From IMG/VR virus record IMGVR_UViG_3300032086_001581, positions 1 through 54,753 of that record: DNA of 54,753 bases; one strand, 5' to 3'. Source of the stretch: a virus. Every line of letters begins with the position of its first letter. Positions within the stretch are counted from its first letter, which is position 1. The notes beneath the pieces were generated by a model. That model was given only the letters and a program-made list of their open reading frames with translations, made no database searches and was not told the DNA's origin. Made by a program: the position numbers and the translations under genes. Shown here one piece after another: positions 3 to 18,035 of this stretch.

Positions 3-197
3 GCTAAACGTATTGTAACAGAAGATGGCGAAGTAAAAGTTGTAGAAATGAAAATGCGAGGTCGTAAAACAGGCGAAAGCGATGAGGATTACGATAGTGA
101 ATTATTTGAATTTGAACCTGATTACAAACCTAAAGGCGGAAGTAGTATAGGTTGGGATACAGACACGGATGGTCTAGGAGGAGCAGACGATGGCTGA
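3..197 (+). CDS. 3' end of an unidentified gene (5' truncated by window edge)
   Basis: An open frame runs from the window edge to a TGA at 195-197 and encodes the last 64 residues of a protein. The tail is very acidic and glycine-rich, with runs such as ESDEDYDSELFEFEPDY and a GGSSIGWDTDTDGLGG end, which suggests a flexible C terminus. It overlaps the next gene by 8 bases, as is usual in this cluster, so it is probably the preceding member of the same operon. No domain is visible in the part that remains and no function can be given. Confidence 0.7.
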   Translation, partial: AKRIVTEDGEVKVVEMKMRGRKTGESDEDYDSELFEFEPDYKPKGGSSIGWDTDTDGLGGADDG

Positions 198-939
198 GTT
201 GTATGCTAATATCAGCATAGGTCATGAAAATGACTGGACTGTATTAGAAAAACGTATTATTGCGGCGGCACAATGTCATAGTGATGCTATTGTAATTTCT
301 AAAACAACTCCTGAATATACTATACCAAAAAATAAAAAATATGTTAGTATTAATAGTAAGTGGGGTAACCTACCTTATATAGATGTGGCAAAGAGAAGTG
401 AGATAGATGAATTAAATGTGCATAAATTTAATAAACTAACAGAAGAGATTGGGATACCTGTAATATGGAGTATTACAGACTCAGAAGCAGGAAGTTGGGT
501 ACTAGAAAATACAAACTGTACTGATGTAAAAATACATTTTGAGTCTAGAAATAATTTTGATCTATGGAAATTTTGTGAGGAAAGATTTAAACATATAATA
601 ATTCCTTTTGGCGGCATTTTAGAAACAGTAAAACCTAAACTTTGGCGTACAAAAGAACATGTGTCAGTATACCATGCGGCATACAAAATGCCTAGTTCTA
701 TTGAAGACTTAAACTTAGATAAGATAGAAGTTTTAAAAGAATATTCCGATAGAGTTGGATATGAAGGCAGAAGCTCAGATATATATCCTGATTGTGCAGT
801 AGAATTAAAAAATATAAATTATATAGAAAAGTTTTTAGGTGATGATGCTGGTGATCTTGGTGATGCTGTTTTAACTCCTAAGAGATTTTATGATATGTTT
901 ATAAACTTAAATCAACTTGAGATAGCAAATGGCGGATAA
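190..939 (+). CDS. Divergent NeuB/SpsE-like nonulosonate (sialic acid) synthase
   Basis: The 249-residue protein resembles the TIM barrel of NeuB-type synthases, which condense phosphoenolpyruvate with a hexosamine to make sialic-acid-like sugars. The N terminus has an ISIGHEND block like the family's EISxNH start. The centre has IPFGGILETVK (138-148), then YHAAYKMPSSIEDLNL (161-176), VGYEGRS (189-195) and IEKFLGDD (212-219), in family order. It is short (family about 340) and has no C-terminal antifreeze-like SAF domain. The usual metal-binding His in GYSDHT is replaced (GYEGRS), and the His of IEKH is lost, so activity is uncertain. The family call is a pattern match by eye. The gene overlaps both neighbours and opens the visible cluster. 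Confidence 0.6.
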   Translation: MAELYANISIGHENDWTVLEKRIIAAAQCHSDAIVISKTTPEYTIPKNKKYVSINSKWGNLPYIDVAKRSEIDELNVHKFNKLTEEIGIPVIWSITDSEAGSWVLENTNCTDVKIHFESRNNFDLWKFCEERFKHIIIPFGGILETVKPKLWRTKEHVSVYHAAYKMPSSIEDLNLDKIEVLKEYSDRVGYEGRSSDIYPDCAVELKNINYIEKFLGDDAGDLGDAVLTPKRFYDMFINLNQLEIANGG

Positions 940-1081
940 ATTTTGGACTCATAAATGTAAACAGGTGGGGCACACAGGAACACTTAAAGGGGAGCCTTGC
1001 AATTATTGTGACGTCACAGAAGAAGACATAGAGCAAGAAGATATGCATGACGACTTTTTATTTAATCCTGAAATAGTATGA
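929..1081 (+). CDS. 50-residue putative zinc-binding protein
   Basis: A short frame begins at ATG 929, inside the end of the NeuB-like gene, and stops with a TGA that overlaps the ATG of the next gene (ATGA). It starts MADKFWTHKCK and contains C10, a PCNYCD pair (C24, C27) and a very acidic second half (EEDIEQEDMHDD). The CxxC and upstream Cys/His suggest a single small zinc site. Its position between two coupled genes, with overlaps on both sides, makes it a real gene rather than a chance frame. Function is unknown; a small accessory or scaffold for the following radical SAM enzyme is only a guess. Confidence 0.6.
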   Translation: MADKFWTHKCKQVGHTGTLKGEPCNYCDVTEEDIEQEDMHDDFLFNPEIV

Positions 1082-2481
1082 GTAAAATTAAACCTAAATG
1101 GGAACACGGTGCTATGCACCCAGATTCAGAAAACAAAGTGTTTTGTACTGCACCCTGGACCCACACATATATTTCTCCGCAGTCAGAGAGGCGTATGTGC
1201 TGTGCATCACGTGAAGACCATATGATGCAGAAACAATATATAGATGCTAGTAATGATGAAAGCACAGGATTATTTAGACCAGTAGGAACTATAGCAGACT
1301 ACAAACCAGTTACACTAAAAGAACATTGGAACTCACCTTACATGATGGACATTAGAAAGAAACTAATGGCAGGTGAGGAAATACCACAATGTAATGTTTG
1401 TAATGATAGTGTGTTAAGCCAAAGTACATATAGACAATGGTTTACAGGTTATTTGTTTGAAGATAAAATAGATAAATGTTTTGAGGAGACAGACGAAAAT
1501 GGATACACTACAATGGAACCTATCTCTTTTGATTATAGGGTTAGTAATTTATGCAATTTTAAATGCCGTATGTGTGGCGAGCCGCTCAGCTCAGCATGGG
1601 AGGCTGAGAAGCGAAAGCATGATCAATGGTCGCCTGAGAACCAGCCGTTCATGGTTCCAGAGAATAAAAAGATAATTGACAAGTTTCAAAAAGAAGTAGT
1701 AGAAGAAGAGTTTTGGGAATATATTTGTTCGGGTACAGTAGAAGAATTATACTGGGTAGGTGGTGAACCATTAATGTATGATATACATTGGCGAGCAATG
1801 GATAGATTAGCACAAGATGATACACTAAAACTTGTACACTTACGTTACAATAGTAATTTAAGTCGTGTGAGATTAGGTAAGCATTACTTATATGACTGGT
1901 TGCCACAAGCAAAAGACTGGACAATGTGTGCAAGTATAGATGGCACAGGTTGGATAGGGGAATTTATTCGCACAGGTCTTAAATGGGACGAGTGGGATAA
2001 AAACTTTAGAGAAGGTGTAGCATTACCAGGCGGACATGATAAAATGCTAATGGACTTAACACTAACTGGTCCTGGTATGTTAGACTTAAAAAACTTTTTT
2101 GACTACGCAATAGAATTAGATGTAAAAATTGAAACAAAAAGAATGTTTGCCTTCCATAGTGATATTGTTTTTAGTCCCATGGCATGGCCTAGACATATAT
2201 TAGACAGAATAATACATGAGAACTTAGATTATATCCGTCCACGTGCAACACATAAGCAACAAACATTAATAAACGAATTAGAAAATATGCTCACAGTCCC
2301 TACATTTGAGGAACAATGGCCTGACGAGCATGAGGATAATTTCTTTAAAGGCAGAAAATGGCAAAGGCGTATTGCTGAAATGAGACCAGAAGAAGCAACT
2401 ACTATAGAAGATGTCTATAAATTAGACAATGAGCTATATGATTGGTGGATGAGAACAGACTACAAGGACAATCAGAGATAA
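1078..2481 (+). CDS. Radical SAM protein, paralogue 1 (N-terminal SPASM/twitch-like block)
   Basis: This is the first of six related proteins (467 residues, the longest). The radical SAM [4Fe-4S] motif is CNFKCRMC at C159, C163 and C166, followed by a GGEP motif for SAM amino-group binding. Ahead of the core is a Cys-rich block: VFCTAPWTH (C23), MCC (C41, C42) and CNVC (C105, C108), with C23 and C41 separated by exactly 17 residues as in all six paralogues. In known SPASM/twitch enzymes such a cluster domain follows the core; here it precedes it. The substrate is unknown. Radical SAM enzymes of this type oxidise or rearrange sugars, amino acids or peptides. The neighbours favour a sugar, which is inference. 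Confidence 0.85.
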   Translation: MSKIKPKWEHGAMHPDSENKVFCTAPWTHTYISPQSERRMCCASREDHMMQKQYIDASNDESTGLFRPVGTIADYKPVTLKEHWNSPYMMDIRKKLMAGEEIPQCNVCNDSVLSQSTYRQWFTGYLFEDKIDKCFEETDENGYTTMEPISFDYRVSNLCNFKCRMCGEPLSSAWEAEKRKHDQWSPENQPFMVPENKKIIDKFQKEVVEEEFWEYICSGTVEELYWVGGEPLMYDIHWRAMDRLAQDDTLKLVHLRYNSNLSRVRLGKHYLYDWLPQAKDWTMCASIDGTGWIGEFIRTGLKWDEWDKNFREGVALPGGHDKMLMDLTLTGPGMLDLKNFFDYAIELDVKIETKRMFAFHSDIVFSPMAWPRHILDRIIHENLDYIRPRATHKQQTLINELENMLTVPTFEEQWPDEHEDNFFKGRKWQRRIAEMRPEEATTIEDVYKLDNELYDWWMRTDYKDNQR

Positions 2482-3227
2482 TGTTATTAGTAAAAAAAGA
2501 CTGTAGTATGTTAGTGTATAGTGTGGGTAAGACAGGCACTACATCTATACTTAAAAGTGTTTTAGGATTTAATCCTCCACCATTTGCAGATGCAAGTTTA
2601 TACACAAACCTAGATTATGTGGGCGTAGGAGAGGGCTCAGGAAGAGTTATTTTAGAACAGTTTAATCTTGTAGATAAAGATGATCATGATTATATAGACC
2701 AATTTAATGCATTAAAAAGATTGATACAAAAAGGTGCTGTACCACACTTTGTTATTAGAGATCCTTGGCAACGTTATGTTAGTGGTGTAAAAGAAGTACT
2801 ACTTGATTTATTAGAGCCACTATATGGTAATGAGAACGGTATTAAACTTAATGAGTTAGTATTACAGCAACCATTAAAATGTGAAGACCTTTTAAACAGA
2901 TTTATATACCTAACTGAATATGATGCAATAAATTTGTCTAAATACAATTATAAGTACTTAAAATCATATGCTATTAATGACAACTATCATACCAGAAACT
3001 GGTTAAAAGAAATAAGTCATTTCTCAAATAAAGTAATTATAAAAAGTAAAGACATAAACAACTTTACCAAAGATATAGGATTTACTCCTGTGGAGTTCCA
3101 AAATACTACAGACAAAAAATTTAAAAATCACCTAAGTGAAATCATAAAAAACTTAAACTTGTACTATGTGTTAGAAGAATATTTAAGTCATGAAATACAA
3201 GAATATAATAATTTATGTAAAAAATAA
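2481..3227 (+). CDS. Sulfotransferase-like protein (PAPS-dependent family), copy 1
   Basis: ATG 2481 overlaps the previous stop (TAATG), so I prefer it to an upstream in-frame start at 2442. The 248-residue product has a 5'-phosphosulfate-binding loop, VGKTGTTS (15-22), near the N terminus and a 3'-phosphate-binding signature, RDPWQRYVSG (93-102). These are the two hallmarks of cytosolic and carbohydrate sulfotransferases, which move sulfate from PAPS to a hydroxyl or amine. No membrane segment is seen, so it would act in the cytoplasm. It is directly followed by a second divergent copy. No PAPS synthetase is seen in the window, so the donor would come from the host. Confidence 0.7.
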   Translation: MLLVKKDCSMLVYSVGKTGTTSILKSVLGFNPPPFADASLYTNLDYVGVGEGSGRVILEQFNLVDKDDHDYIDQFNALKRLIQKGAVPHFVIRDPWQRYVSGVKEVLLDLLEPLYGNENGIKLNELVLQQPLKCEDLLNRFIYLTEYDAINLSKYNYKYLKSYAINDNYHTRNWLKEISHFSNKVIIKSKDINNFTKDIGFTPVEFQNTTDKKFKNHLSEIIKNLNLYYVLEEYLSHEIQEYNNLCKK

Positions 3228-3997
3228 TGAGAGTAATAGAAACAGATAAACAAATTATTTTTGCGGCCAGTAAATGTGGAACTTCGACTTTTTTAGGTTC
3301 ACAAGATAGCGAGGAATATAGAATTTTTACTACTAAAGGATGTCCATATAGAAAGCAAATAAATTTATGTAAAAAACTTTTACATAAAAGTAAAAAAGAA
3401 TTAATTATTTGTATTAGAGAACCTGAAGAGAGATTTTTAAGTGGCTTATATGAAGTTGTTTTTAAACAAAACTGTTTGTTATTAATAGAACAACTAGTCG
3501 ATTCAAATGCTGATACAAGCACTATATCAGATGTATTTAATGCCTACACAGATATAAAATTTTGGGATAGAACATTACCTGTATATTTACAAAGTGCAAT
3601 GCCTTTATATTGGCAAAATGGAATACTATTTAATTACCAAGCAGAATTATTTTGTGGTAATTGGTTATCACATGCAGATTCAATAAAAGAATATGCACAA
3701 GACACAGGCTACAATTACAAAATTATAGACTTATCTAATTTATCTAAATGGCTTTCAGAAGAAAATCTACCTATTTTAAATAAAAATGAAAAAAACGATA
3801 TATTTTATTATATGCCAAAATTAAAATCCGCATATAAAAATAATAAAGATTTATATGACAGTGACTCTATATTTAAGGCTTTTGCTGATGCATTCTATAA
3901 TTGTCCTCCTTTTGTAAAAGAAAACTTTGAAAGGTATATTAGGGAAGAAAAAAATATGTATAGTAAATTACTATCAGAAGCATACCAAACAAAATAA
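3227..3997 (+). CDS. Sulfotransferase-like protein, copy 2
   Basis: The start ATG overlaps the preceding stop codon. This 256-residue protein repeats the layout of its neighbour: a loop SKCGTSTF (15-22) in the 5'-phosphosulfate position and REPEERFLSG (64-73) in the 3'-phosphate position. In the first motif Lys-Cys-Gly replaces the more usual Lys-Thr-Gly. The rest is strongly diverged from copy 1, so the two probably act on different acceptors or positions. The family assignment rests on the two motifs and their spacing from the N terminus; the substrate cannot be read from the sequence. Confidence 0.6.
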   Translation: MRVIETDKQIIFAASKCGTSTFLGSQDSEEYRIFTTKGCPYRKQINLCKKLLHKSKKELIICIREPEERFLSGLYEVVFKQNCLLLIEQLVDSNADTSTISDVFNAYTDIKFWDRTLPVYLQSAMPLYWQNGILFNYQAELFCGNWLSHADSIKEYAQDTGYNYKIIDLSNLSKWLSEENLPILNKNEKNDIFYYMPKLKSAYKNNKDLYDSDSIFKAFADAFYNCPPFVKENFERYIREEKNMYSKLLSEAYQTK

Positions 3998-4064
3998 AAA
4001 CGCAAAATCTATTCCGATAAATATACAGGTAGTAAAAACTACACAAACAACACAGGAGATAGAG

Positions 4065-5384
4065 ATGGCCTCAGTCGGATTTATCGGTGTAGGTAAGTTA
4101 GGACAAGCCTGTGCCGAGATGGTCGCTGAAGTACATGATGTTGTTGGTTATGATGTTAATCCTGTAGAGCCTGAAAACTTTACAATGAGTGACACGTTGG
4201 AAGGAGCAGTAAAAGGACAAGATATTGTTTTTATTGCTGTACCTACACCGCATGACCCACAGTATGATGGAAAAGCACCAACCAGCCATTTACCAAACAA
4301 GGACTTTGACTACGGTTTAGTTAAGCAAGTTCTTTCAGAAGTAAATGCGGTTGCAACAAAAGACCAATTAGTAGTCCTTATATCAACAGTTCTCCCTGGA
4401 ACTACCAGGAGAGAGTTTATTGATTTAATTCCAAATGCCAGATTCGTTTACAATCCATACTTAATTGCTATGGGTACAGTAAAGTGGGATATGGTTAATC
4501 CAGAAATGGTAATGATTGGAACAGAAGATGGAAGTGAAACAGGTGACGCATTGGAACTTGTAGACTTTTATAAAACAATAATGCAAAACGAACCAAGATA
4601 CATTATAGGTACTTGGGACGAAACAGAATGTATTAAGGTATTTTACAATACATTTATATCAGCAAAAGTAAGTTTGGTAAACATGATACAAGATGTTGCA
4701 GAAAAATCAGGTAATATAAACGCAGAATTAGTTTGTGATGCCTTAGCAACATCCGATAGACGTATTATGGGTCCAGGATATATGAAGCCAGGTATGGGCG
4801 ATGGTGGTGCATGTCATCCACGTGATAATATTGCTCTACGTTACATGGCAGAAAAACTTGATTTAGGATATGACTTATTTGATGCTGTAATGTTAAGTAG
4901 AGAAAAACAAGCAGAAAATATGGCTAAATCTTTAATGGATTTTGCAGGTGATTGGCATCCTACAACACAGACAACTATACCAAGTATGCCTGTTATTATT
5001 GTAGGCAAAGCATACAAGCCATTAGTAGAATATGAAACAGGTTCTAGTAGTATGCTTGTAGGACATTACATTGAAAAAGCAGGGTTCGAACTGCATTACT
5101 ACGACGAAAAAACCGGTGATATACCGCCACAAGATGTACTCGACAATCCTGCAGTATATTTACTTGCACATAATCCAGGCATTACATATGGTGATCAGTT
5201 GGATACTGTACCAGGTTGGTACAATGGCGAGCATAGTGTGACAGATTGTGATACTGCTTTAACAGTAGCAACAGGTAATGGAACAGAATTAAATTTTGCT
5301 AAGAATAGTATTATTGTTGATCCATGGAGAAAAACTCCAGACATTGACGGTGTTACAGTAATACATTACGGTAATACTAGGTAG
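4065..5384 (+). CDS. UDP-glucose/GDP-mannose dehydrogenase family protein
   Basis: I chose ATG 4065 because AGGAG lies 6 bases upstream and the protein then begins with the dinucleotide fold, VGFIGVGKLG (4-13); an upstream start at 3927 would add 46 non-homologous residues. The 439-residue enzyme has the expected middle-domain pattern (E188, K191, N195, K201) and the catalytic Cys loop GMGDGGACHPRDN with C250. The family oxidises a nucleotide-sugar C6 alcohol to the uronic acid with two NAD+. The C-terminal domain has GKAYKPLVEYETGSS, like the UDP-binding region. It supports a sugar-making role for the cluster; the exact sugar is unknown. Confidence 0.85.
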   Translation: MASVGFIGVGKLGQACAEMVAEVHDVVGYDVNPVEPENFTMSDTLEGAVKGQDIVFIAVPTPHDPQYDGKAPTSHLPNKDFDYGLVKQVLSEVNAVATKDQLVVLISTVLPGTTRREFIDLIPNARFVYNPYLIAMGTVKWDMVNPEMVMIGTEDGSETGDALELVDFYKTIMQNEPRYIIGTWDETECIKVFYNTFISAKVSLVNMIQDVAEKSGNINAELVCDALATSDRRIMGPGYMKPGMGDGGACHPRDNIALRYMAEKLDLGYDLFDAVMLSREKQAENMAKSLMDFAGDWHPTTQTTIPSMPVIIVGKAYKPLVEYETGSSSMLVGHYIEKAGFELHYYDEKTGDIPPQDVLDNPAVYLLAHNPGITYGDQLDTVPGWYNGEHSVTDCDTALTVATGNGTELNFAKNSIIVDPWRKTPDIDGVTVIHYGNTR

Positions 5385-5388
5385 TAAT

Positions 5389-6714
5389 ATGTCAGACCCA
5401 AAATATTGTTCACTACTCTGGAAACACATTAGTAACGAGCCGTTAGGGCATGTTAGGACATGTTGTATTGCCAGAGATAGAGTGCCTGATGAAAATGGCA
5501 GAGAATATACTTTGGGTCAAACGTCTGTAAAAGATATATTTCACAGCAAATATTACAAAGAAATAAGACAAGCAATTAGAGATGGTGAAATGCCTAAAAA
5601 CTGTGAGCCTTGTTGGCAAGATGAACGCAACGGCAAAAAATCTAAAAGGCAACTATATAACGAAATTGCAGAACAAAGATATGGCGATATAAATTATGAC
5701 GAAGAGCCGGATCTACCTGAAGACTTTCAACTTATACTTAGTAATACTTGTAATTTAAAATGCAGAAGTTGTAATCCAAACTACAGTAGTAAATGGGTTA
5801 AGGAAGCAAAAGACAGAAAACTTCCTTACATAGAAGAAACTGTAAAAATAGGCATGAATGATTCAGCATCTAAGTTTTGGACCCATATGGACGATTGGCT
5901 ACCTAACATAAGATTTTTAGAAGTAATGGGTGGTGACCCGTTATATATGAAAGAGTTCAGGACATTTGCAGATAAACTTATGGCTGATGATATTGCAAAA
6001 GATTTAGAAATATCCTTTAGTACAAATGGCACTACAGTAAATAGACCATTTATAGAAAAAATGTTATCTAATTTTAAAAGTGTAGGATTTAATGTTAGTA
6101 TTGATGCCGCAGTACCTAAAAGATTTAATTATTTAAGACACGGCGCAGACTGGAAGGAGGTTGCAGATAATTTAGATTGGTTCCACGATTTATTAATAGA
6201 AAGAGGAATTAGTATAGGCATAACTGTAACTATAACAGCATTAAATGTTATGTATCTAGGTGAATTACATAAAATATTTGAAGAACGTTGGCCTCAATTT
6301 ATTATATTTCATAATATGGCTAATTTTCCAACTTGGTTTAATTGTAATGTGTTCCCAGAAGAATGTAAGCCTGAAATAGTTGAAAGTTTACAAGATACTA
6401 GTAATTTTAGGCCAGAATACCAACAGGAAATAAATGGTATTTTTCATCATGTTATGACTCCACGAACTCTTACAACTTTGCCTTACGGTACAAGTGGAGA
6501 AGATACAGTTGAAGCAGAAATAGAAAAACGATGGTTTATGTTTTGTAAAGAAGTTGTCGCTGGTGATTTATATAGAAAGGAAAATTTTAGAGAAAGTTTC
6601 CCTGAATTGTTTACGATACTTGTAAAACATAGAGTTTTTAACTATGATACTTTTAAGTATAATATTGAAAACATTCCAAACTTTGGAAACCTCCAAGCAG
6701 GAACAATTATATGA
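5389..6714 (+). CDS. Radical SAM protein, paralogue 2
   Basis: A 441-residue protein beginning 4 bases after the dehydrogenase. The radical SAM motif is CNLKCRSC (C121, C125, C128), and a VMGGDPLYM segment stands in the GGEP position, so the conserved Glu is an Asp here. The N-terminal block is YCSLLWKH (C7), TCCIAR (C25, C26) and CEPC (C72, C75), with C7 and C25 again 17 residues apart. It ends with a conserved tail (ENFRESFPELFTILVKH) also recognisable in the other copies. It overlaps the next paralogue by 4 bases (ATGA). Substrate unknown. Confidence 0.85.
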   Translation: MSDPKYCSLLWKHISNEPLGHVRTCCIARDRVPDENGREYTLGQTSVKDIFHSKYYKEIRQAIRDGEMPKNCEPCWQDERNGKKSKRQLYNEIAEQRYGDINYDEEPDLPEDFQLILSNTCNLKCRSCNPNYSSKWVKEAKDRKLPYIEETVKIGMNDSASKFWTHMDDWLPNIRFLEVMGGDPLYMKEFRTFADKLMADDIAKDLEISFSTNGTTVNRPFIEKMLSNFKSVGFNVSIDAAVPKRFNYLRHGADWKEVADNLDWFHDLLIERGISIGITVTITALNVMYLGELHKIFEERWPQFIIFHNMANFPTWFNCNVFPEECKPEIVESLQDTSNFRPEYQQEINGIFHHVMTPRTLTTLPYGTSGEDTVEAEIEKRWFMFCKEVVAGDLYRKENFRESFPELFTILVKHRVFNYDTFKYNIENIPNFGNLQAGTII

Positions 6715-7958
6715 GCATAAAAGACGATAAATTTTGTCCGTTGCCATGGAATCATTTAGGCACCCATCCACATGGTGGTGTTACACCTTGTTGTATATCA
6801 GATATGACAGCAGGTAAAAATAGAGCAAGAAATTACGGTGAAGAACGAGATGAGTTCTTTAATTTAAATGATCACGATATAGAAACACATATGAATAGTG
6901 ATTATTTTAAAGAGATAAGAAAGGAGATGTTAAATGATATTGAGCCTAAAGCATGTAAAAGATGCTACCAGGAAGAAAGAAAGGGAATTGAGAGCAAACG
7001 TATCTACGAGTCCAAGATATATAAGGACTTTGACCCCGATTACGCATCCAGAATTACGAGTGAGGATGGTAGCATACCTATGGACCTTCGTTTTGTTGAG
7101 TTGCGTCTCGGTAATGTATGTAATGTCCGCTGTCGTACATGTAATCCAGCAAGTAGTTCGCGTTGGGTGGCAGACTATAAAAAAATTGTGGATTCCCTGG
7201 ACTTCGTAAATGACGGATACAGTTGGTTAGATCACAAACACGATTTTCAATGGCCAGAAGATGAAAAATTTTATGAAGATTTATTTAAATGTGCACCTAA
7301 TATGGAAGTACTTTATATTAATGGCGGAGAGCCCACACTTATAAAAGCACATTGGAAGTTTTTAGAAATGCTTGTTGAAAGTGGACGTAGTAAAAATATT
7401 ATACTATGGTATAATATTAATATGACGCAAGTACCTGATAAAGCGATTCCACTTTGGAAAGAATTTAAAGAGGCAAGAGTTTGTCCTAGTATAGACGATC
7501 TTGATCACAGAAACAAGTACATAAGGTTCCCTACAGAATGGTCAGATGTAGAGAATAATTTACAAAAAATTATACAAGTACCTGAACTTACTGTGAGGAT
7601 AACACAAACAGTAAGTGCATATAGTTATATCTATTTAGACGAGTTTTTAGACTGGGCACCTGTGCCTGTAGATATGAACTTTGTATATGACCCTGATTAC
7701 CTATCGCCTGGAATACTACCTCCTGTCGTGAGACACGAGGCCCATGCCAAGTTTAGAAAAACGATGGGTAACAGACATGAGCTTGGAACATTGTTGAGCA
7801 TGTATAATGACGATGATTGGGATGAAGTTAAGTGGGAACACTTTTGTCGGTACAATGACGAGCTAGATAAAATACGCAATCATGAAGATGGTTGGAGGGA
7901 AGTTTTTCCTGAACTAATTGAAATATTGGATAGACATGGAATTCAGCACAAATATTGA
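6711..7958 (+). CDS. Radical SAM protein, paralogue 3
   Basis: A 415-residue member of the tandem array. Core motif CNVRCRTC (C137, C141, C144) with INGGEPTLI downstream. N-terminal block: FCPLPWNH (C9), PCCISD (C27, C28) and CKRC (C82, C85), followed by EERKGIESKR, a piece shared with copies 2, 4 and 5. The tail GWREVFPELIEILDRH matches the copy 2 ending. The local base composition around 6930-7210 is less AT-rich than the rest of the cluster. It is translationally coupled at both ends. Confidence 0.85.
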   Translation: MSIKDDKFCPLPWNHLGTHPHGGVTPCCISDMTAGKNRARNYGEERDEFFNLNDHDIETHMNSDYFKEIRKEMLNDIEPKACKRCYQEERKGIESKRIYESKIYKDFDPDYASRITSEDGSIPMDLRFVELRLGNVCNVRCRTCNPASSSRWVADYKKIVDSLDFVNDGYSWLDHKHDFQWPEDEKFYEDLFKCAPNMEVLYINGGEPTLIKAHWKFLEMLVESGRSKNIILWYNINMTQVPDKAIPLWKEFKEARVCPSIDDLDHRNKYIRFPTEWSDVENNLQKIIQVPELTVRITQTVSAYSYIYLDEFLDWAPVPVDMNFVYDPDYLSPGILPPVVRHEAHAKFRKTMGNRHELGTLLSMYNDDDWDEVKWEHFCRYNDELDKIRNHEDGWREVFPELIEILDRHGIQHKY

Positions 7959-9159
7959 AGATCACGATAATGATGTAATGTGTATCCTGCCATGGATTCA
8001 TATGCACCCTTGGCCTAACGGCAAAACAATGTTATGCTGTGACTCGCCATGGGAACATAATATAGGTGATCTACGAGAAAATAGTTTACAAGAAGTATGG
8101 AACAGTGAGCGAATGAAAGAAATTCGTCTTAATATGTTGAACGGTAAAAAATGTAAAGAATGTGTACGTTGTTATGAAAAGGAAGAAAAAGGACACGATA
8201 GCCTAAGAGTAAGAAGTAACAAAGATTGGTTACAACCTCATTGGGGCAAAGTATCAAATACAAATCCTGACGGCAGTTTAGATGATTTACACATAGTATA
8301 TTTAGATTTTCGTTTTAGTAATGTTTGCAACTTACGTTGTAGATATTGCGGGCCTGAACTTAGTAGTAACTGGTATGCTGATGCTAAAGCAAGTACATTT
8401 AATGTAAGTCCAACAGAAAGAATAATACAAATCCGTAAAGACGTAGATAACTTTATGGAAGAATTTGATCCTATGTTGGAACACATAGAGCAAATTTATT
8501 GGGCAGGTGGTGAACCTATTTTAATGGACGAGCATTGGGGCATAATGAACAGGCTTGTTGAAATGGGCAAAACAGATATACGGATTTTTTATAATACAAA
8601 TTTTACAACATTAGAATATAAAGGGCAAAGTGTATTAGACTTATGGAAAAACTTTGATAATATAAGTGTTGGTGCAAGTTTAGATGCAGAAGGCGTACGT
8701 GGAGAATATCAACGTAAAGGAACTGTGTGGGGTGACGTTGAAAATAACATTATAGAACTGCGAGAACGCTCTCCTGAAGTAGACTTTTATATAAGTGCTA
8801 CAGTTAGTGCCTATAATGCCTGGCATATAACAGACTTTCATAGAAGTTGGGTAGATAAAGGTTACATAAAGCCAGGTGACTGGTATATGAATGTATTACT
8901 TAATAATGAAAGATTTAGAATGAGTGTACTACCACAAGGCTTAAAAGCAGAAATAAAAGAAAAATGGAAAAAGCACCTACGTTGGTTAGAACCTCAAGAC
9001 AATATAGGCAGAGCGACAGAAGGTTATAAGAGTGCAATAAAATTTTTAGATGATGACCACACTCATTTACTAAACGAGTTTAAATCATTTAATGTAGAAT
9101 TTGATAAACTGAGAGATGAAAACTTTGACGATGTGTATCCAGAGTTGGCAGGAATATGA
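7936..9159 (+). CDS. Radical SAM protein, paralogue 4
   Basis: I place the start at ATG 7936; the longer frame from 7918 would need a TTG. The gene overlaps copy 3 by 23 bases and gives 407 residues. Core motif CNLRCRYC (C131, C135, C138), then WAGGEPILM. The N-terminal block is MCILPWIHMHPWPNGK (C16), LCCDSPW (C34, C35) and CVRC (C76, C79). The run ENSLQEVWNSERMKEIR between the clusters closely resembles the segment between Cys clusters of ordinary C-terminal SPASM domains, which is the best evidence that this block is SPASM-like but relocated. Substrate unknown. Confidence 0.85.
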   Translation: MEFSTNIEDHDNDVMCILPWIHMHPWPNGKTMLCCDSPWEHNIGDLRENSLQEVWNSERMKEIRLNMLNGKKCKECVRCYEKEEKGHDSLRVRSNKDWLQPHWGKVSNTNPDGSLDDLHIVYLDFRFSNVCNLRCRYCGPELSSNWYADAKASTFNVSPTERIIQIRKDVDNFMEEFDPMLEHIEQIYWAGGEPILMDEHWGIMNRLVEMGKTDIRIFYNTNFTTLEYKGQSVLDLWKNFDNISVGASLDAEGVRGEYQRKGTVWGDVENNIIELRERSPEVDFYISATVSAYNAWHITDFHRSWVDKGYIKPGDWYMNVLLNNERFRMSVLPQGLKAEIKEKWKKHLRWLEPQDNIGRATEGYKSAIKFLDDDHTHLLNEFKSFNVEFDKLRDENFDDVYPELAGI

Positions 9160-10313
9160 GTTGTATTTTACCATTTATAAATTTAGAAGCACGAACAGAT
9201 GGAACGATGGCTGTGTGTTGTATAATGCAGGAATCTGCTAAAAAGGAGGATGGCACAGAGTTTAATTTAGCAAATGGAGATACTTTAAGTGATGTTAAAA
9301 ATAGTAAATGGCTTAAAGAGTTACAGCAAAAATTTTTAAATAATGAAAAACTTGATGCATGTAGAAATTGTTGGCATGAAGAGCAGGCAGGTATACAAAG
9401 TAAAAGATTAAGAGAAAATTTTTATTGGGGAGAAGAATTTGTTCCAAATACTAAAGCATTAGACTTAAAATTAGGTAATATTTGTAATAGTAAATGTAGA
9501 ATATGCAGTAGTTTTGCGAGTAGTCAATGGGCGGCAGAGGAACTTAAAATAAATCCTCAAAATGAAAATGCTAAAAAATTTAATAAGCAAGGAATGTGGC
9601 CTAAAACAAATGAAAATTTTTGGAGTGATATAGATACACATTTAAAAGATATAGAAAAATTAGAATTTTTCGGTGGCGAGCCGTTAATGATAGAAAGGCA
9701 TTATGAAATTTTAGAAAGATGTGTAGATTTAGGCATTGCAAAAAATATTAGTTTATCATATAATACAAACGGTAGCATATTTCCAGAAGATAAAATTAGT
9801 TTATGGGAGCAATTTAAAAAAGTAGAAATTTTTGTAAGTATAGATGATATAAATGAAAGATTTGAATATATAAGGTTCCCAGGTAACTTTACAGAAGTTA
9901 TTACTAATTTAGGACATTTTAGTAAACTTAATAAAGATATATTCTCAATAGGTATTTTTCAAACTATAAGTGTTTTTAATATTATGCATATGGCTGAATT
10001 AACAGAATTTATAAGTAGGCATTTTGATAATATAGATATACATTATAATATGGTTTTCACACCAGATCATATATCACCTAAAGTACTACCTAAAAGAATT
10101 AAAGAAAAAGTTACTTTAAAATATCAAGATAATAATCTAGATCATGTAAATAGTACATTAAAGTTTATGAATGGAGAACAATATTCTAAAGATGAGTACA
10201 TAAATTTTTTAATACAAACAAAACAAATAGACAAGTTTAGGAAAGAACAATTTGATAAAGTATTTCCAGACTTATTTAAACATATAGAGAAAGATTGGAA
10301 TGGAATACAGTAA
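9156..10313 (+). CDS. Radical SAM protein, paralogue 5
   Basis: The shortest copy at 385 residues, coupled to copy 4 by ATGA. Core motif CNSKCRIC (C110, C114, C117) followed by FFGGEPLMI. The N-terminal block begins almost at the first residue: MSCILPF (C3), VCCIMQ (C21, C22) and CRNC (C69, C72). The C-x17-CC spacing is kept even though the protein has lost nearly all sequence ahead of it, which argues that this block is functionally needed. The tail EQFDKVFPDLFKHIEK matches the family ending. Codon use is even more AT-rich than in copy 3. Confidence 0.85.
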   Translation: MSCILPFINLEARTDGTMAVCCIMQESAKKEDGTEFNLANGDTLSDVKNSKWLKELQQKFLNNEKLDACRNCWHEEQAGIQSKRLRENFYWGEEFVPNTKALDLKLGNICNSKCRICSSFASSQWAAEELKINPQNENAKKFNKQGMWPKTNENFWSDIDTHLKDIEKLEFFGGEPLMIERHYEILERCVDLGIAKNISLSYNTNGSIFPEDKISLWEQFKKVEIFVSIDDINERFEYIRFPGNFTEVITNLGHFSKLNKDIFSIGIFQTISVFNIMHMAELTEFISRHFDNIDIHYNMVFTPDHISPKVLPKRIKEKVTLKYQDNNLDHVNSTLKFMNGEQYSKDEYINFLIQTKQIDKFRKEQFDKVFPDLFKHIEKDWNGIQ

Positions 10314-11604
10314 AACATTTTGTCCGTATCCCTGGATACATGTAATGACCCAACCTACAGGTACTGTAAGTTGGTGCTGTGTTGCACGTGATAATTTTAA
10401 AAATGACGATGGTTCAATGGTTGACCTAAATAAAGGACATAAAATAGAAAGTGTCTGGAACAGCAACCATATGCGTAAAATCCGTAAGCAAATGATAGAA
10501 GGCGACGTGGTAAAAGGTTGCGAACATTGTTATGATTTGGAAGATATGGGTTTCCCTAGTTATAGAACTAACTATATTAGGGATTGGTTCGAGTATAGTG
10601 GAAGAGGAGAAGAGATCCATGAAATAATAGAACGAAGTATCAACAACGACTATAGAGTAGAAGAATCCCCGATGTACTTAGATTTTAGACTTGGCAATAT
10701 GTGTAACCTGAAGTGTAGAATGTGCCAACCACAAAATTCAAGTCAAATTCAAAAGGAATACAAAAAAATAGAAGAGGCTGAACCCAGGGCAGGGCAGTTT
10801 ATTAAAGACAACTTTACCTGGGGTCAGTTTGTTGACAACTTAACTAATTGGGAAGACGATCCAGAGTTTTTAAGGCAAGTAGAGGAGTGGCTCCCAAATG
10901 TAAGTAAACTTTATTTTACAGGTGGCGAACCAACTATTATAGAACGTGTATATTGGATAATGGAAAAGTGTGTAGAAATGGGCATTGCTAAAGATATAGA
11001 GCTAGTGTTCAACAGCAACATGACTAACATTCAGAAACGTTTTCTGGACTTGGTAGAGCAGTTTAAAAGTGTATTAATGTGTGTAAGTGTAGATGCTTAT
11101 GGACATGAAAACGAATACATTAGAGGAGCAAGTCATTGGAAACAAGTTGAGAAAAATTTAAGAAAGTATTGTGCAAGTGACGTTATAGGTACTGTATTGT
11201 TTAGTCCAGTTATACAAATTTATAATGTATTAACTATTACAAAATTATTAACATTTATAGAAGAACTTGAAATAGAATATGGTAGAGAAGTATTTGTAAC
11301 ATTCCTAATATGCGACTACCCTACTAGTTTAGACTTTAGAAATTGTCCTGAGCAGGTTAGAGAAGTAGCCGCAGGTAGATTAGAACAATGGTTAAAGCAA
11401 AGTAAAGTACTAGCAAATAGACCTGAAAACGTCCAAAGTATTAATGCAACCATAAAAGCCCTTAAAGAAAATCGAAAAGAAAATTGGGAACAAGAACTAG
11501 TAACATTTAAAAAGTATACAAAATTGTTAGATAAACAAAGAGATGAAAGCATGGAAGAAGCACTTCCAGAATTACACAGGTTGATGTACAATGCCAATAG
11601 ATAG
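10300..11604 (+). CDS. Radical SAM protein, paralogue 6
   Basis: A 434-residue protein overlapping copy 5 by 14 bases. Core motif CNLKCRMC (C135, C139, C142) with FTGGEPTII. N-terminal block FCPYPWIH (C8), WCCVAR (C26, C27) and CEHC (C74, C77), again C-x17-CC. SVWNSNHMRKIRKQM lies between the cluster halves and resembles the SPASM pattern. It has a longer insert than copies 3-5 between CEHC and the core (about 58 residues), comparable to copy 1. It ends ESMEEALPELHRLM, the family tail. The gene is the last of the array and overlaps an SGNH-like gene. Confidence 0.85.
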   Translation: MEYSKTFCPYPWIHVMTQPTGTVSWCCVARDNFKNDDGSMVDLNKGHKIESVWNSNHMRKIRKQMIEGDVVKGCEHCYDLEDMGFPSYRTNYIRDWFEYSGRGEEIHEIIERSINNDYRVEESPMYLDFRLGNMCNLKCRMCQPQNSSQIQKEYKKIEEAEPRAGQFIKDNFTWGQFVDNLTNWEDDPEFLRQVEEWLPNVSKLYFTGGEPTIIERVYWIMEKCVEMGIAKDIELVFNSNMTNIQKRFLDLVEQFKSVLMCVSVDAYGHENEYIRGASHWKQVEKNLRKYCASDVIGTVLFSPVIQIYNVLTITKLLTFIEELEIEYGREVFVTFLICDYPTSLDFRNCPEQVREVAAGRLEQWLKQSKVLANRPENVQSINATIKALKENRKENWEQELVTFKKYTKLLDKQRDESMEEALPELHRLMYNANR

Positions 11605-12890: not shown

Positions 12891-13018
12891 CAGAAGAAAA
12901 TAATACCCCAAACCCTAAAAACGAAAACGAAGATTTAAAATTGACTCCTGAAGAGGAAGAGCAGTTAAAAAAGAAATTAGAAGAATTAAGAAAAAGAGAC
13001 CCATTCGTTTATAGATAA
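12887..13018 (+). CDS. 43-residue charged helical protein
   Basis: A frame starting at ATG 12887 (overlapping the TGA of the preceding gene) and ending with TAA that overlaps the ATG of the carbamoyltransferase. It consists of a polar N-terminal tail rich in Asn and Pro, a charged helix (EEEEQLKKKLEELRKR) and a DPFVYR end. The perfect fit between its two neighbours, with coupling at both ends, supports it as a gene. Function unknown. Proximity to the carbamoyltransferase suggests it could be an accessory of that enzyme, but nothing in the sequence proves it. Confidence 0.6.
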   Translation: MTEENNTPNPKNENEDLKLTPEEEEQLKKKLEELRKRDPFVYR

Positions 13019-14532
13019 TGAGAATTTTAGGACTTAGTTTTGGTTTCCACGATGCTGGTGCCTGTATGCTACAGGATACCAATATAGAATTTGCTGGACA
13101 CTCAGAACGTTATAGCAAAATTAAAAATGATCCATGGCTTAATCACGAGCTAGTTGGTGCCGCAATAGAAGGTGGAAAACCAGATATAATTGTATTACAT
13201 GAAAAAGCATGGCTTAAAAAACTAAGAAACATATATGGAAGAAATTGGTATGGGTTAAGAGAGCCCACACAACGCCAATGGATTAAAAAGTTTTATCCTG
13301 AATTAAAAGATATACCTATTAAAGATTATTTACATCACGAAACACATGCGGCCGCAGGTGTATTAAGCAGTAATTTTGATGAATGTGCTGTTATGGTAAT
13401 AGATGCCATAGGAGAATTTGATACTGCTACTATATGGAAATGGCAAAACGGCAATCTTAAAAAAATGCATACTACATCTTTTCCTAGTAGTTTAGGATTA
13501 TTTTATAGTGCAGTTACACATCACGTAGGACTAAAACCTATGGAAGATGAGTATATACTTATGGGTATGGCCGCTTATGGTAAGCCAGAAAACTGGAAGC
13601 CATTGAGTAAAAAGATGGGTAAAAGATTTTTTAGAATGAAACATCCGTGGATGAGTCACAGTAGAACAATACAAATGAAAGAAAACCTACAAAGAGGATT
13701 GCCTAAAAATAGTTTTGTAGGTGTTGATGATTTTGACATGGCCGCGGCCGCTCAAGATCAAGTTGAACAACGTGTAAATGCTTATGCTCAATATGCCAAG
13801 GAAATTACCGGTAGTAATAATTTGGTTTATATGGGTGGAGTAGCACTAAACTGTGTAGCAAATAGTATGCTGACAGATATATTTAAAAATATTTTTATAA
13901 TGCCTAACCCAGGCGATTGCGGTAGCAGTTTAGGTGCCGCCGCTCTTGAGTTGTACAATACAACAGGTGAACGTGTGAAGTGGGAAACACCGTATTTAGG
14001 ATACAACATAGAGGGTAAGTATCCAATTAAAAAAGCATTAAAAAGTTTAAAAGAGGGGGAACTCTTTGGAATAGCAAATGGTAGAGCTGAATTTGGACCA
14101 CGTGCATTAGGTAACAGAAGCCTATGTGCAGATCCAAGGGGGCCTGACGTAAAAGATAAGATGAACGTTATCAAAAAACGTCAAAAGTTTAGGCCATTTG
14201 CACCAATGATTTTGGAAGAGTATGTGCATGAATATTTTGAAATGCCAGGAGGTATTTCACATGCACCATACATGCAGTTTGTAGCAAAGTGTAAAAAGCC
14301 AGATGAGTTTCCTGCTATTATTCATGAAGACGGTACAAGCCGTGTTCAAACAGTTCGCAAGGAAGAACATCCTGACTTACATAAACTTCTTACAAAGTTT
14401 TACGAAGAAACAGGCTGTCCAATGTTACTTAATACAAGTTTAAACATTAAAGGACAACCTATTGTAAACGATGAAGAAGATGCCAAAGCCTTTGCTCAAC
14501 ACTATGGAGTAAAGGTTCATGTCCGAGATTGA
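13018..14532 (+). CDS. O-carbamoyltransferase (NodU/CmcH/TobZ family)
   Basis: The 504-residue enzyme has the family's N-terminal Kae1-like domain: ILGLSFGFHDAGACML (3-18), HHETHAAAG (106-114), MGGVALNCVANS and the SLGAAALELY block. The C-terminal YrdC-like region starts at GRAEFGPRALGNRSLCADPR and ends TGCPMLLNTSLNIKGQPIV, both strongly conserved in the family. These enzymes use carbamoyl phosphate and ATP to make carbamoyl-AMP, then carbamoylate a sugar hydroxyl, as in Nod factors, tobramycin and cephamycin. Similar genes are widespread in marine T4-like phages. Its presence beside sugar enzymes supports sugar tailoring. Confidence 0.9.
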   Translation: MRILGLSFGFHDAGACMLQDTNIEFAGHSERYSKIKNDPWLNHELVGAAIEGGKPDIIVLHEKAWLKKLRNIYGRNWYGLREPTQRQWIKKFYPELKDIPIKDYLHHETHAAAGVLSSNFDECAVMVIDAIGEFDTATIWKWQNGNLKKMHTTSFPSSLGLFYSAVTHHVGLKPMEDEYILMGMAAYGKPENWKPLSKKMGKRFFRMKHPWMSHSRTIQMKENLQRGLPKNSFVGVDDFDMAAAAQDQVEQRVNAYAQYAKEITGSNNLVYMGGVALNCVANSMLTDIFKNIFIMPNPGDCGSSLGAAALELYNTTGERVKWETPYLGYNIEGKYPIKKALKSLKEGELFGIANGRAEFGPRALGNRSLCADPRGPDVKDKMNVIKKRQKFRPFAPMILEEYVHEYFEMPGGISHAPYMQFVAKCKKPDEFPAIIHEDGTSRVQTVRKEEHPDLHKLLTKFYEETGCPMLLNTSLNIKGQPIVNDEEDAKAFAQHYGVKVHVRD

Positions 14533-14719
14533 TTGGCATAAAATCCAACGAAAATTAGAAGGCAGATGTCACTTTTGCGGTGGCGACTTACCTGATCATA
14601 GAGGTGTATGTCCTGTATACGGTGAAGAACTACATAAAAAATGGAACGGTATTAATAAAGGCATAGATGAAATAGAAGATGCAGTAAATTATATATTGGA
14701 AAAGAATAAACATGTTTGA
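14519..14719 (+). CDS. 66-residue zinc-ribbon-like protein
   Basis: The start codon overlaps the end of the carbamoyltransferase and the end overlaps the start of the repeat protein. GRCHFCGGDLPDHRGVCPV provides a CxxC pair (C17, C20) and a third Cys with nearby His, a half or asymmetric zinc ribbon. The second half is a charged helix with the run GIDEIEDAVNYILEK. No enzymatic motif is visible. Together with the 50-residue Cys protein at 929 it is one of two tiny Cys-rich proteins embedded in the cluster. Function unknown. Confidence 0.65.
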   Translation: MSEIDWHKIQRKLEGRCHFCGGDLPDHRGVCPVYGEELHKKWNGINKGIDEIEDAVNYILEKNKHV

Positions 14720-17700
14720 TATATTTTACATAGGCGAAAACAATAGTCTTGCAGATCTTTTTCCATTTGCTAAACAAATAAAATCTGTAGACCAAGCAAT
14801 ACCAAATACAAAAATGTATTGGCTTGTAGACCCTAACATAGAAATAATAGATGTAGATGTATTTGACTTTAGGCCTGAAAGTTACGATATGGGGTACACT
14901 CATGTATGGAAATGGGATAACCTTAATTATGGTGGTGTTACATTATTACCAAAAAATAAATCTGAAGGGACAAAAGAAATAAACAAGATAGTTTGTAAAA
15001 AAACTTTTGAAAAATTATATACAAAAACACCAGGAAAATATTTTGAAAAGAATCTATTTGCAAGTCATGTATGGTGTATAGATAAAGAATACAAGTTACC
15101 AGAAGACATTAATTGGGCACCCAGTAATTTTGAACCTAAATTTATACATAGTTTTCACTTACGTGGTCAATTAGAGCATAAGTATCCTGATAAAGAAGGT
15201 GGAATTAAATTATATCCAAGAGAATGGAAATCAGCAGATATAAAATATCATAACTTCTTAGACATAAAATTATCTTATCCTGTGATGTTAGTAGCAGATG
15301 TAGAAAATTATAGCCAAAGAAATACTTTTATGGAAGACTATGTTTGGTTAGTTGATGCTGGTCATAAAGTAAATTTAAATACATTTGATTGGGTACCTAA
15401 TCCTTTCGAAGACGGTATGGTTCATGTATTTAAAATGCCATATCAGTTACAAGAAAAATATCCTATGGCAATGGGTGGTATACGTTTAGTACCTAAAAAT
15501 TGGAAAGATGCAGAAACTAAAATCCATCCTGCTTGTCCTATAGAGGATGAAAGTTATGATGTATTTTACATAGACGAAGACGAATTTAGTGCAGAAACAT
15601 ATAGCGACTGTGCAGAGCGTAGTAAAAGTGATTGGTTTTGGGTAGTGGATAGAGAGTACGACTTTAATGGAAAACTATCCTTTGTCCCAGCAAAACACGA
15701 AAGAGAATATATACATGTATTTAAATTGCCTGATCATTTAGAGGAAAGATATCCAATAGATAATACAGACCCTTGGGATATCAGATGCGGTGGAATAAGA
15801 CTTGTAAATAAATTATTTGACATGACAAAGCACAAATATCAGTTAAATGTTTGTCCTGTAAGGTTTGATATTTTTTATACAAATAATTTAACAGATTATG
15901 AAACATTTGCTAGAAAAAGTAGAACAAAAATGTTTTGGTTAATTGATGAGGAACATGAATTAGATAATATTTTTAGATATGTACCTCATAGATATGATCA
16001 AAAAACAATACAGATTTTTAAAATAGAAAATCAACTCAATCATAAGTATCCTAGAAGTGTAACTAACGTAAGCGATAATAGATGTGGCGGTGTAAAATTA
16101 GTTCCAGTAAAATATGACGAAAATGACATAAAATATATTTCAATGTCTCCCACAGGATCAAAACAATATCCAATCTTATATGTAGAAAATGTTGACGATT
16201 ATACCGTTGCTACTCAAGACTGCTGGGTTATAGATAAAGACTATCAATTTGACGAAGAAGTAGACTGGACTCCACCTGACTTTCAAAAGAATATGATACA
16301 TACTTTTCATTTAGGCGATCAATTACGTCATAAGTATCCTGAAGAGATAGGCGGAATAAGATGGGTACCAAAAACTTGGAAAGATGCTGAAATAGTAATC
16401 CACCAAATTGCTCCTTTTAATGATGTAGAGTTTGAAAAGTTTGAAAGTGAAGAAGAGGGAAGGCTCAAAAGCAAAAATAATTGGTTTTGGGTAATAGAAC
16501 CTGATGTTGATGTCCTAGAAGAATTTGATTTTGACTTTATACCTGATACATGGGACGAAGGAAAAACTCATGTATGGCAAAAACTTAATCCAGTAACAAA
16601 AAGACAATACGATTACGGCGGTATAACACTATACCCTAAAGTAAAACAAACTAAAGGAAGACCTAAATATATTAGAGAACCTTCTTGCGTACAACAGGAA
16701 TATCCAGTATATTACTTACAGGCATCTGATTATGAAAATGGCTTACAGAGCGTCTATGAGCGTCTATCAGCACAGTCTAACAGCAATATGTACTGGATTG
16801 TAGATGCTTTTACACAAATAGACCCTGAATTTAAGTTTGATTATTACCCTACACAATACGATCAACATAATGTACATGTATTCCTAAATGAAGATAATGC
16901 GTATACGAGCGTTAGATTAGTACCTAAGCATACATTTTTAGACAACGAGTACACAGATAAAGAGATAGAAAACAATTCATTCCATCACTTAAAACAAATA
17001 AATACTATTGCGAGCCTTAGGCCTAAATGGCCTGTTATTCACTTGCAAAGTTTAGAAAAGAACGAGTTTATAAACGCGATAAAGGATATAGAAACTCCCT
17101 TTGTTTGGACTGTAGACCCAGATGTGAAAGTGAATCAAAGTTTGCTCGACAGTGGATATCTGCCTACAATAACTCAAACAAATAAAGTACATGCATGGCA
17201 AAAAGTAAATCCTGTCACAGAAAAAGTTCATGCATATGGTGGGCTAAGATTATGGCCCACCAGTAATGACTATTCAGATATCAAATCTGATGATTTAAAA
17301 TTAAACAGAATTAAAGATATAAACTATGTAAGGGAAATAGGCAGTAAAACTATACCTTATGATATTATATTCTTAAGTTATAAAGAACCTAATGCAGAAG
17401 TTGGCTTCCAAAAACTTCAAGATCATTTAAGAACAAACAGTTTAAATATAAATCTTATATGGATAAGAGATATAGAGGGTATATTTGAAGCCCATAAACT
17501 TGCATCTACAAGGGTATCAAGTAAAATGTTTTGGGTTATAGATGCTGATGCAGAATTAGTAGAAGATTTTAATTTCGATTACATACCAGATGTATACGAC
17601 CAAGAAGTTGTACATGTATGGGCAAGTAAAAATCCTATTACACAAGATGAATATGGATATGGAGGAGTAAAACTATTCCCTACAGATATGGTTAGAGAAG

Positions 17701-18035
17701 CCACTAGTTGGGGATTGGATTTTACAACAGGACTAAGTTCTAGATTTAAGTCTATGCCACAAGTAAGTTGCATAACAAGATTTAATACTGATGCATTTAG
17801 CACTTGGAGGAGTGCGTTCAGAGAGTGTGTAAAACTTACACTTAATGATGATGCAGAAAGTAAACAACGTTTAGAAACTTGGTTAAACACTAGGGGCGAG
17901 GAGGAGTTTACTGCTGAAGCAGTAAGCGGAGCACTAGCGGGGAACCAGTTTGCATTAGCAAACAAAGATAGTCTAGCAGAACTAGATAAAATAAATGACT
18001 TTAACTGGTTAAGAGAGCAATATGATAGATCTTAA
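14712..18035 (+). CDS. Ten-unit repeat protein with glycosyltransferase-like C-terminal unit
   Basis: The 1107-residue protein is built from about ten related units of 85-110 residues. Each has a W-x-(I/V)-(D/E) strand (W37, W121, W212, W310, W409, W505, W593, W695, W799, W941), then H-(V/S/T/A)-(W/F), then a GG-(I/V/L)-(T/K/R)-L strand, the last missing in unit 8. Units start near residues 1, 104, 189, 282, 385, 486, 572, 664, 773 and 882. Only the last resembles a whole GT-A catalytic half: FLSYKEPNAEVGF, then IEGIFEAHKLAS, then FWVIDADAE with a D944-x-D946 metal motif. Other units carry partial versions (DPD, EPD) or none. I infer a glycan-related protein with one active and several degenerate units; sugar unknown. 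No signal peptide. Confidence 0.6.
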   Translation: MFDIFYIGENNSLADLFPFAKQIKSVDQAIPNTKMYWLVDPNIEIIDVDVFDFRPESYDMGYTHVWKWDNLNYGGVTLLPKNKSEGTKEINKIVCKKTFEKLYTKTPGKYFEKNLFASHVWCIDKEYKLPEDINWAPSNFEPKFIHSFHLRGQLEHKYPDKEGGIKLYPREWKSADIKYHNFLDIKLSYPVMLVADVENYSQRNTFMEDYVWLVDAGHKVNLNTFDWVPNPFEDGMVHVFKMPYQLQEKYPMAMGGIRLVPKNWKDAETKIHPACPIEDESYDVFYIDEDEFSAETYSDCAERSKSDWFWVVDREYDFNGKLSFVPAKHEREYIHVFKLPDHLEERYPIDNTDPWDIRCGGIRLVNKLFDMTKHKYQLNVCPVRFDIFYTNNLTDYETFARKSRTKMFWLIDEEHELDNIFRYVPHRYDQKTIQIFKIENQLNHKYPRSVTNVSDNRCGGVKLVPVKYDENDIKYISMSPTGSKQYPILYVENVDDYTVATQDCWVIDKDYQFDEEVDWTPPDFQKNMIHTFHLGDQLRHKYPEEIGGIRWVPKTWKDAEIVIHQIAPFNDVEFEKFESEEEGRLKSKNNWFWVIEPDVDVLEEFDFDFIPDTWDEGKTHVWQKLNPVTKRQYDYGGITLYPKVKQTKGRPKYIREPSCVQQEYPVYYLQASDYENGLQSVYERLSAQSNSNMYWIVDAFTQIDPEFKFDYYPTQYDQHNVHVFLNEDNAYTSVRLVPKHTFLDNEYTDKEIENNSFHHLKQINTIASLRPKWPVIHLQSLEKNEFINAIKDIETPFVWTVDPDVKVNQSLLDSGYLPTITQTNKVHAWQKVNPVTEKVHAYGGLRLWPTSNDYSDIKSDDLKLNRIKDINYVREIGSKTIPYDIIFLSYKEPNAEVGFQKLQDHLRTNSLNINLIWIRDIEGIFEAHKLASTRVSSKMFWVIDADAELVEDFNFDYIPDVYDQEVVHVWASKNPITQDEYGYGGVKLFPTDMVREATSWGLDFTTGLSSRFKSMPQVSCITRFNTDAFSTWRSAFRECVKLTLNDDAESKQRLETWLNTRGEEEFTAEAVSGALAGNQFALANKDSLAELDKINDFNWLREQYDRS

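Follow-up and report, generated by a model that had tools for sequence, protein, structure and literature searches.

The NeuB barrel makes sialic and related acids. We take the two histidines of its GYSDHT and IEKH motifs, H215 and H236, to be ligands of the Mn ion, and K53 and S132 to be residues of the phosphoenolpyruvate (PEP)/sugar site. In one account of NeuB (PMC6795526), the residues around the ligand are E25, Q55, N74, T110, F112, K129, N184, Y186, S213, H215, E234, F288, and R314, and the enzyme has an antifreeze-like (SAF) domain with Arg314. Here, we describe a divergent phage relative encoded in a 54,753-nucleotide stretch of viral DNA (IMG/VR record IMGVR_UViG_3300032086_001581, positions 1 to 54,753; "the window"). 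The 15 best matches listed for the window's DNA polymerase are all from jumbo phages of 337–490 kb.

A NeuB-type barrel without a SAF domain

A preliminary description of the window had read the gene at 190–939 as a NeuB-like barrel, and both its sequence and its predicted fold bear this out. In a Pfam scan, the protein scored 42.9 bits (E 5.2e-11) against PF03102 (NeuB), whose cut-off is 22.1, which places it in that sequence family; this was the sole Pfam family listed at E ≤ 1. The same family was found at E ≤ 0.1 in all 18 distinct members of the divergent family described below, and its cut-off was passed in 19/19 family records in a DNA search. The NCBIfam scores were below the cut-offs for both NeuB_NnaB (31 bits vs. 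399.65) and PseI (16.1 vs. 340.25). Since P0003, a phage NeuB with an intact site, also misses these cut-offs (189.7 and 155.3), they do not tell active from inactive forms. The only PHROGs match was weak (E 0.042).

A model built from an 18-row alignment (pLDDT 88.7, pTM 0.87) is predicted to adopt the NeuB-type (beta/alpha)8 barrel. Its top eight VIA-align entries were of the NeuB, PseI, or SpsE types (Z 26.2–22.4), from 6ncs (Z 26.2, 2.5 Å over 236 residues) down to 1vli (Z 22.4, 3.6 Å over 233 residues), followed by the DAHP synthase 1rzm (Z 18.7, 2.8 Å over 217 residues); NeuB types likewise ranked top for an earlier model from a 9-row alignment (pLDDT 79.2). A better match to another TIM-barrel family, which would have spoken against the earlier reading, was looked for and did not turn up in the Pfam scan or in either fold comparison; neither KDO8P nor DAHP synthase was among the Pfam matches listed, and their fold scores were Z 18.7 and below. 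In BFVD, nine matches reached E ≤ 0.001; a KDO8P synthase ranked first, and second came a phage protein carrying the name N-acetylneuraminic acid synthase.

The missing SAF domain had also been pointed out, and the Pfam scan indeed lists no SAF match for the protein. The 18 family proteins end 31–43 residues past the H236 column, and the sister phage NeuBs end 53–63 residues past H236 in 82/82, as judged by length. Pfam scans showed NeuB without SAF in the phage NeuBs P0002 and that of MH319754.1 and in the bacterial proteins of L118 and L121, and NeuB with SAF in the longer bacterial proteins of L108 and L107, the SAF score of L107 lying just under the cut-off. Because all 82 sisters are also short, the absence appears to be inherited and is no mark of the divergent family. 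The short C-terminus is therefore real, but we reject it as an oddity: it is ordinary in this lineage, by length in 82/82 sisters and by Pfam in two phage and two bacterial proteins. A SAF domain hidden in the next small ORF (929–1081) was judged unlikely by eye and by length.

Sampling of the family and its relatives

The 44 records tried at the outset (43 of 80 polymerase loci plus L002; a later set comprised 39 of those 43 plus W01) contained a homologue of the same kind in three IMG/VR records and a canonical NeuB in LR756508.1. A search with a four-sequence alignment gave 9 loci, a second round gave 18, and a third, with alignment A5, gave 16 loci, all in records already known to carry the family. 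No relative was returned by a search of viral contigs with the single sequence P0001 or by a search of genome contigs with alignment A1. Each scan uses two short conserved patterns, so members without those patterns would be missed. The divergent family as used here comprises 19 records including the window, with 18 distinct sequences; L092, whose protein is identical to that of L091, was left out of alignments A3 and A4.

The sister set of 82 phage NeuBs consists of the best 80 of 442 viral-contig loci plus P0002 and the MH319754.1 NeuB. SAF-less NeuBs with an intact site (L175–L254) are common in viral contigs, with 442 stretches confirmed and the best 80 fetched, and in 12 further loci of these best 80 there is another NeuB-type ORF whose sequence includes a GxSxH-like motif. 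Among 398 genomes of one phylum, 33 matched the family profile, at 39.3 bits or less, and the 30 loci fetched from these cellular matches encode NeuBs with both His. This comparison set is unfiltered and took the place of one selected by a His motif; for cells and sisters alike, each ORF runs from stop to stop, and L136 is cut by the locus edge. The divergent form was thus not met in cells within the scope of those 398 genomes and of two 8-residue patterns in genome contigs. L106 showed a weak match to P0002, and a search of its genome for NeuB was negative. A literature search, which left most subscription papers outside its reach, found no title or abstract start on the divergent family.

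The active site is replaced in one fixed way

Columns were numbered by aligning the solved Neisseria NeuB to P0002 and then P0002 to the divergent family. The preliminary description had reported replacement of the GYSDHT His and loss of the IEKH His; the window protein indeed reads GYEGRS in place of GYSDHT and YIEKFLGD in place of IEKHF, so that H215 corresponds to R194 and H236 to F215. Beyond the two His, K53 is V35 and E25 is N7.

These changes are fixed in the 18 distinct phage sequences, the point that an alignment with relatives had been proposed to settle. Neither His occurs in any of them (H215 column, R13/K5; H236 column, Y13/F5), while the sister phage NeuBs keep both in 82/82, so that relatives retaining the pair, which would have counted against the earlier reading, lie outside the family. 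The PEP/sugar residues E25 (N18), K53 (V12/I6), Q55 (T8/S7/N2/G1), and S132 are each absent in 18/18, whereas K129 and E234 are retained in 18/18. T110 is S15/C3, F112 is T17/S1, S213 is E18, and H181 is H11/Y7, with S154 kept in 5/18 and D247 in 7/18; the N74 column is W18, and here the cellular sequences are aligned differently in the 18-family and sister-set site tables. N184 and Y186 vary within the family, showing that not every pocket column is constrained. The clade is of the NeuB family by sequence and fold but does not qualify as a nonulosonate synthase by its active-site residues.

All 30 bacterial NeuBs retain E25, K53, Q55, K129, H215, E234, H236, and D247. The sister phage NeuBs retain K53, Q55, K129, S132, S154, S213, H215, E234, H236, and D247 in 82/82 and E25 in 81/82; one of the two sister search patterns spans K53 and Q55, so these two columns were partly selected, while H215 and H236 lie outside the patterns. 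W58, K38, D97, K114, and E213 are common to the divergent family and the sisters. Twelve columns are fixed differently from the sisters, among them N7, E13, N14, T96, H116, E192, and G217.

A different degenerate NeuB-like protein of ~250 aa is encoded 1.6–3.0 kb from a canonical NeuB at L181 (7394–8134), L235 (8777–9529), L198 (1209–1967), and L199 (1183–1941), with three distinct sequences since L198 and L199 are the same. It keeps E25, Q55, and H215, has Tyr at H236 and Thr at K53, and lacks E234 in 4/4. Loss of the metal site by NeuB copies may be a repeated event.

Origin and constraint

In a 52-row tree with the root set on classical NeuBs, the 18 divergent rows form one clade with support 100/100, which is joined first (96/93) by P0003 and P0004, two canonical NeuBs from that gene run; an earlier 50-row tree lacked both. 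A long stem leads to the divergent clade (2.14 in the 50-row tree), and long-branch effects may therefore make the placement misleading. The family profile gave 114.5 and 112.6 bits for P0003 (L087) and P0004 (L093), 79.2 and 68.7 for two other phage NeuBs from named records, and 55.3 or less for bacterial NeuBs.

P0003 (273 aa) and P0004 (276 or 287 aa, according to which start is used) are second, ordinary NeuBs that lie upstream of the divergent copy. Their Pfam NeuB scores were 198.4 and 203.3 bits in a DNA search, and they retain AEIG, VKFQKR, STGM, GxSSHE, and the ERH of IEKH. Each follows a cytidylyltransferase-family gene and precedes a 302- or 272-aa gene without a Pfam family; this stretch (L087, 3620–5995; L093, 3659–5983) is a possible CMP-sugar route in two phages. 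Family records, which may be fragments, hold one NeuB match in 17/19 and two in 2/19.

The gene is an open frame in the window and likewise in the 18 IMG/VR loci. Values of dN/dS were 0.09–0.20 in 7 pairs of the family; dS exceeds 1 in 6 of the 7, so these values are rough. Eleven ligand-site columns were less variable than random columns (0.70 vs. 1.33 bits, p 0.009), five of them being invariant and two (N184 and Y186) variable, and the C-termini of strands showed only a weak excess of invariant residues (p 0.08; 0.04 when polar residues alone are counted). In a comparison of the window with L088, the NeuB-like protein is 76% identical and two neighbours are 96% and 92% identical. In the same comparison, dS was 1.41 for 190–939 and 0.47 and 0.48 for 1078–2481 and 4065–5384, perhaps through recombination or local replacement.

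Gene neighbourhood

The features around the gene are given in Table 1.

Table 1. Features of the window at and around the NeuB-like gene
Positions	Strand	Feature	Basis or remark
3..197	+	3' end of upstream gene	8-base overlap with the start of the NeuB-like gene
190..939	+	divergent SAF-less NeuB-family gene	249 aa; ORF, Pfam NeuB, site table, fold
929..1081	+	small ORF, 50 aa	homologues by eye, same place in L087 and L088
1078..2481	+	twitch-domain radical-SAM protein	NF033640 294.7 bits, cut-off 170
2481..3227	+	protein without listed Pfam family	cluster in 8/19 loci; sulfotransferase-like P-loop by eye
4065..5384	+	nucleotide-sugar dehydrogenase family	PF00984 65.5 and PF03721 55.5 bits, both over cut-off
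5389..11604	+	five more radical-SAM cluster genes	starts 5389, 6711, 7918, 9156, 10300
13018..14532	+	Nol/NodU-type carbamoyltransferase	phrog_1601 346.3 bits

By eye, the upstream fragment matches the C-terminal end of the upstream ORF of L086, and that ORF's counterparts at other loci belong to the radical-SAM cluster. In L087 and L088 as well as in the window, the 50-aa ORF directly after the gene carries Cys pairs. At L097 and L098 (6731) and L100 (6734), the gene is instead directly followed by a 73-aa ORF that appears Smr-type-like by eye; its LDLHG motif is presumably that of an Smr-type domain.

The twitch-domain protein scored 26.3 bits against Pfam Radical_SAM, below the cut-off of 29.5. 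Four of the five further radical-SAM genes were scanned with Pfam, and Radical_SAM was over its cut-off in three; the gene at 7918 was assigned by clustering. Across 1078–11604, six radical-SAM-cluster genes thus lie in tandem, and in the five scanned with Pfam a SPASM match is N-terminal, ahead of the radical-SAM match. The NCBIfam scores of the dehydrogenase (NDP-sugDHase, 149 bits vs. 189.8) and the carbamoyltransferase (NodU, 130.7 bits vs. 1000) were below their cut-offs. Further along, 14712–18035 encodes a 1107-aa protein with weak PHROGs matches and, by eye, a recurring motif like H-V-F/W ... GG-I/V-x-L-x-P.

ORF clustering placed radical-SAM-type genes in 19/19 loci and the nucleotide-sugar dehydrogenase in 18/19; L092, the sole locus without it, ends ~0.9 kb past the NeuB-like gene. 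The dehydrogenase directly follows the NeuB-like gene in L101, L103, and L104, and its relatives in Synechococcus phage Bellamy and Pelagibacter phage HTVC008M adjoin NadE-like, carbamoyltransferase, and methyltransferase genes. With radical-SAM genes, a nucleotide-sugar dehydrogenase, and a carbamoyltransferase around the NeuB-like gene, the neighbourhood looks like one for glycan synthesis.

Discussion

From the computed homology, fixed replacements, single clade, constraint, and neighbourhood, we infer a loss of synthase activity, a sugar ligand, and catalysis: the 190–939 protein probably arose from a duplicated and remodelled phage NeuB; it would no longer be a usual synthase and would have a new pocket where a sugar or sugar acid is bound and probably converted. 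It would have kept the NeuB barrel along with some of the ligand pocket, namely K129 and E234 plus a Trp and an Asp common to the phage NeuB lineage, while the metal site and most of the PEP site would have been lost; with these gone, the protein is not expected to produce nonulosonic acids through the standard Mn-dependent condensation. N7, E13, T/S96, H116, E192, R/K194, and Y/F215, fixed or nearly so, may form a different pocket, most likely for a sugar or sugar acid of the adjoining radical-SAM/nucleotide-sugar-dehydrogenase pathway, on which the protein would act without metal and without PEP. The uniform loss of the His, with other conserved residues in their place, suggests a different job in a phage sugar-making cluster. 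Against this reading stand the variable columns within the pocket (N184, Y186, S154, D247, and H181), the weak enrichment at strand C-termini, the rough dN/dS values, and the long stem of the clade. A more specific version, which we put forward tentatively, is a phage-born NeuB-fold enzyme whose new N-E-H-E-R/K pocket carries out a metal-free, non-synthase step on a sugar acid that the neighbouring dehydrogenase and radical-SAM enzymes provide. The earlier proposal of either another chemistry or a repurposed barrel thus finds support at the level of sequence, given replacements fixed in 18/18, purifying selection in seven pairs, and no better barrel family.

Alternatively, the protein could be a pseudoenzyme, a NeuB paralogue without catalysis of its own that joins an active partner in a complex or regulates it, whether a canonical phage or host NeuB or a radical-SAM neighbour. 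The presence of a canonical NeuB a short way upstream, within one gene run, in 2/19 records would suit such a role, as would the other partly degenerate protein near canonical NeuBs in four other records (three distinct sequences). However, the divergent copy is the only one in 17/19 records, one of them of 250 kb, although all may be fragments, and its pocket columns are conserved, which a pure scaffold would not need; we regard this reading as rather unlikely. We consider it improbable that the protein is still a PEP-condensing synthase that runs the NeuB type of reaction independently of metal, with R/K194 and E192 replacing the metal's role. The retention of K129 and E234 speaks for it, as does the occurrence of the related KDO8P synthases in metal and non-metal forms (by entry titles, e.g., 2nxi), but K53, S132, and E25 are lost in 18/18 and S154 in 13/18, and no STGM stretch like that of the sisters was seen in the window protein, L101, or L103.

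That the gene is simply decaying on its way out seems very improbable, even though catalytic residues are lost and, from the window to L088, the protein has diverged more quickly than two of its neighbours. The frames are open and identical replacements recur, and the low dN/dS together with ligand-site columns of above-average conservation fit a rebuilt NeuB copy and not a decaying gene; we rejected decay on the selection test in 7 pairs.

A clade that retained the barrel and exchanged its catalytic core in a single uniform manner offers a clear instance in which to study phage enzyme remodelling, with the nearest intact relative still adjoining the divergent copy in two phages. It raises the question of what phage radical-SAM sugar clusters make, and the Pfam label "NeuB" in a phage genome is no guarantee of a nonulosonate synthase.

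The canonical SAF-less phage NeuBs, including P0003 and P0004, resemble the divergent family in the barrel, the lack of SAF, and W58, K38, D97, K114, and E213, but keep E25, K53, STGM, H215, and H236, at which the family differs. The predicted barrel is also like those of Neisseria NeuB (1xuu, Z 25.1), Campylobacter PseI (8h2c, Z 24.4), and Bacillus SpsE (1vli, Z 22.4), which, unlike the 190–939 protein, bear the metal and PEP residues. DAHP and KDO8P synthases share a related barrel at a lower fold score, and the best fold match, the Leptospira N-acetylneuraminate synthetase 6ncs (290 residues), has GYSDH and IEKH intact in the alignment.
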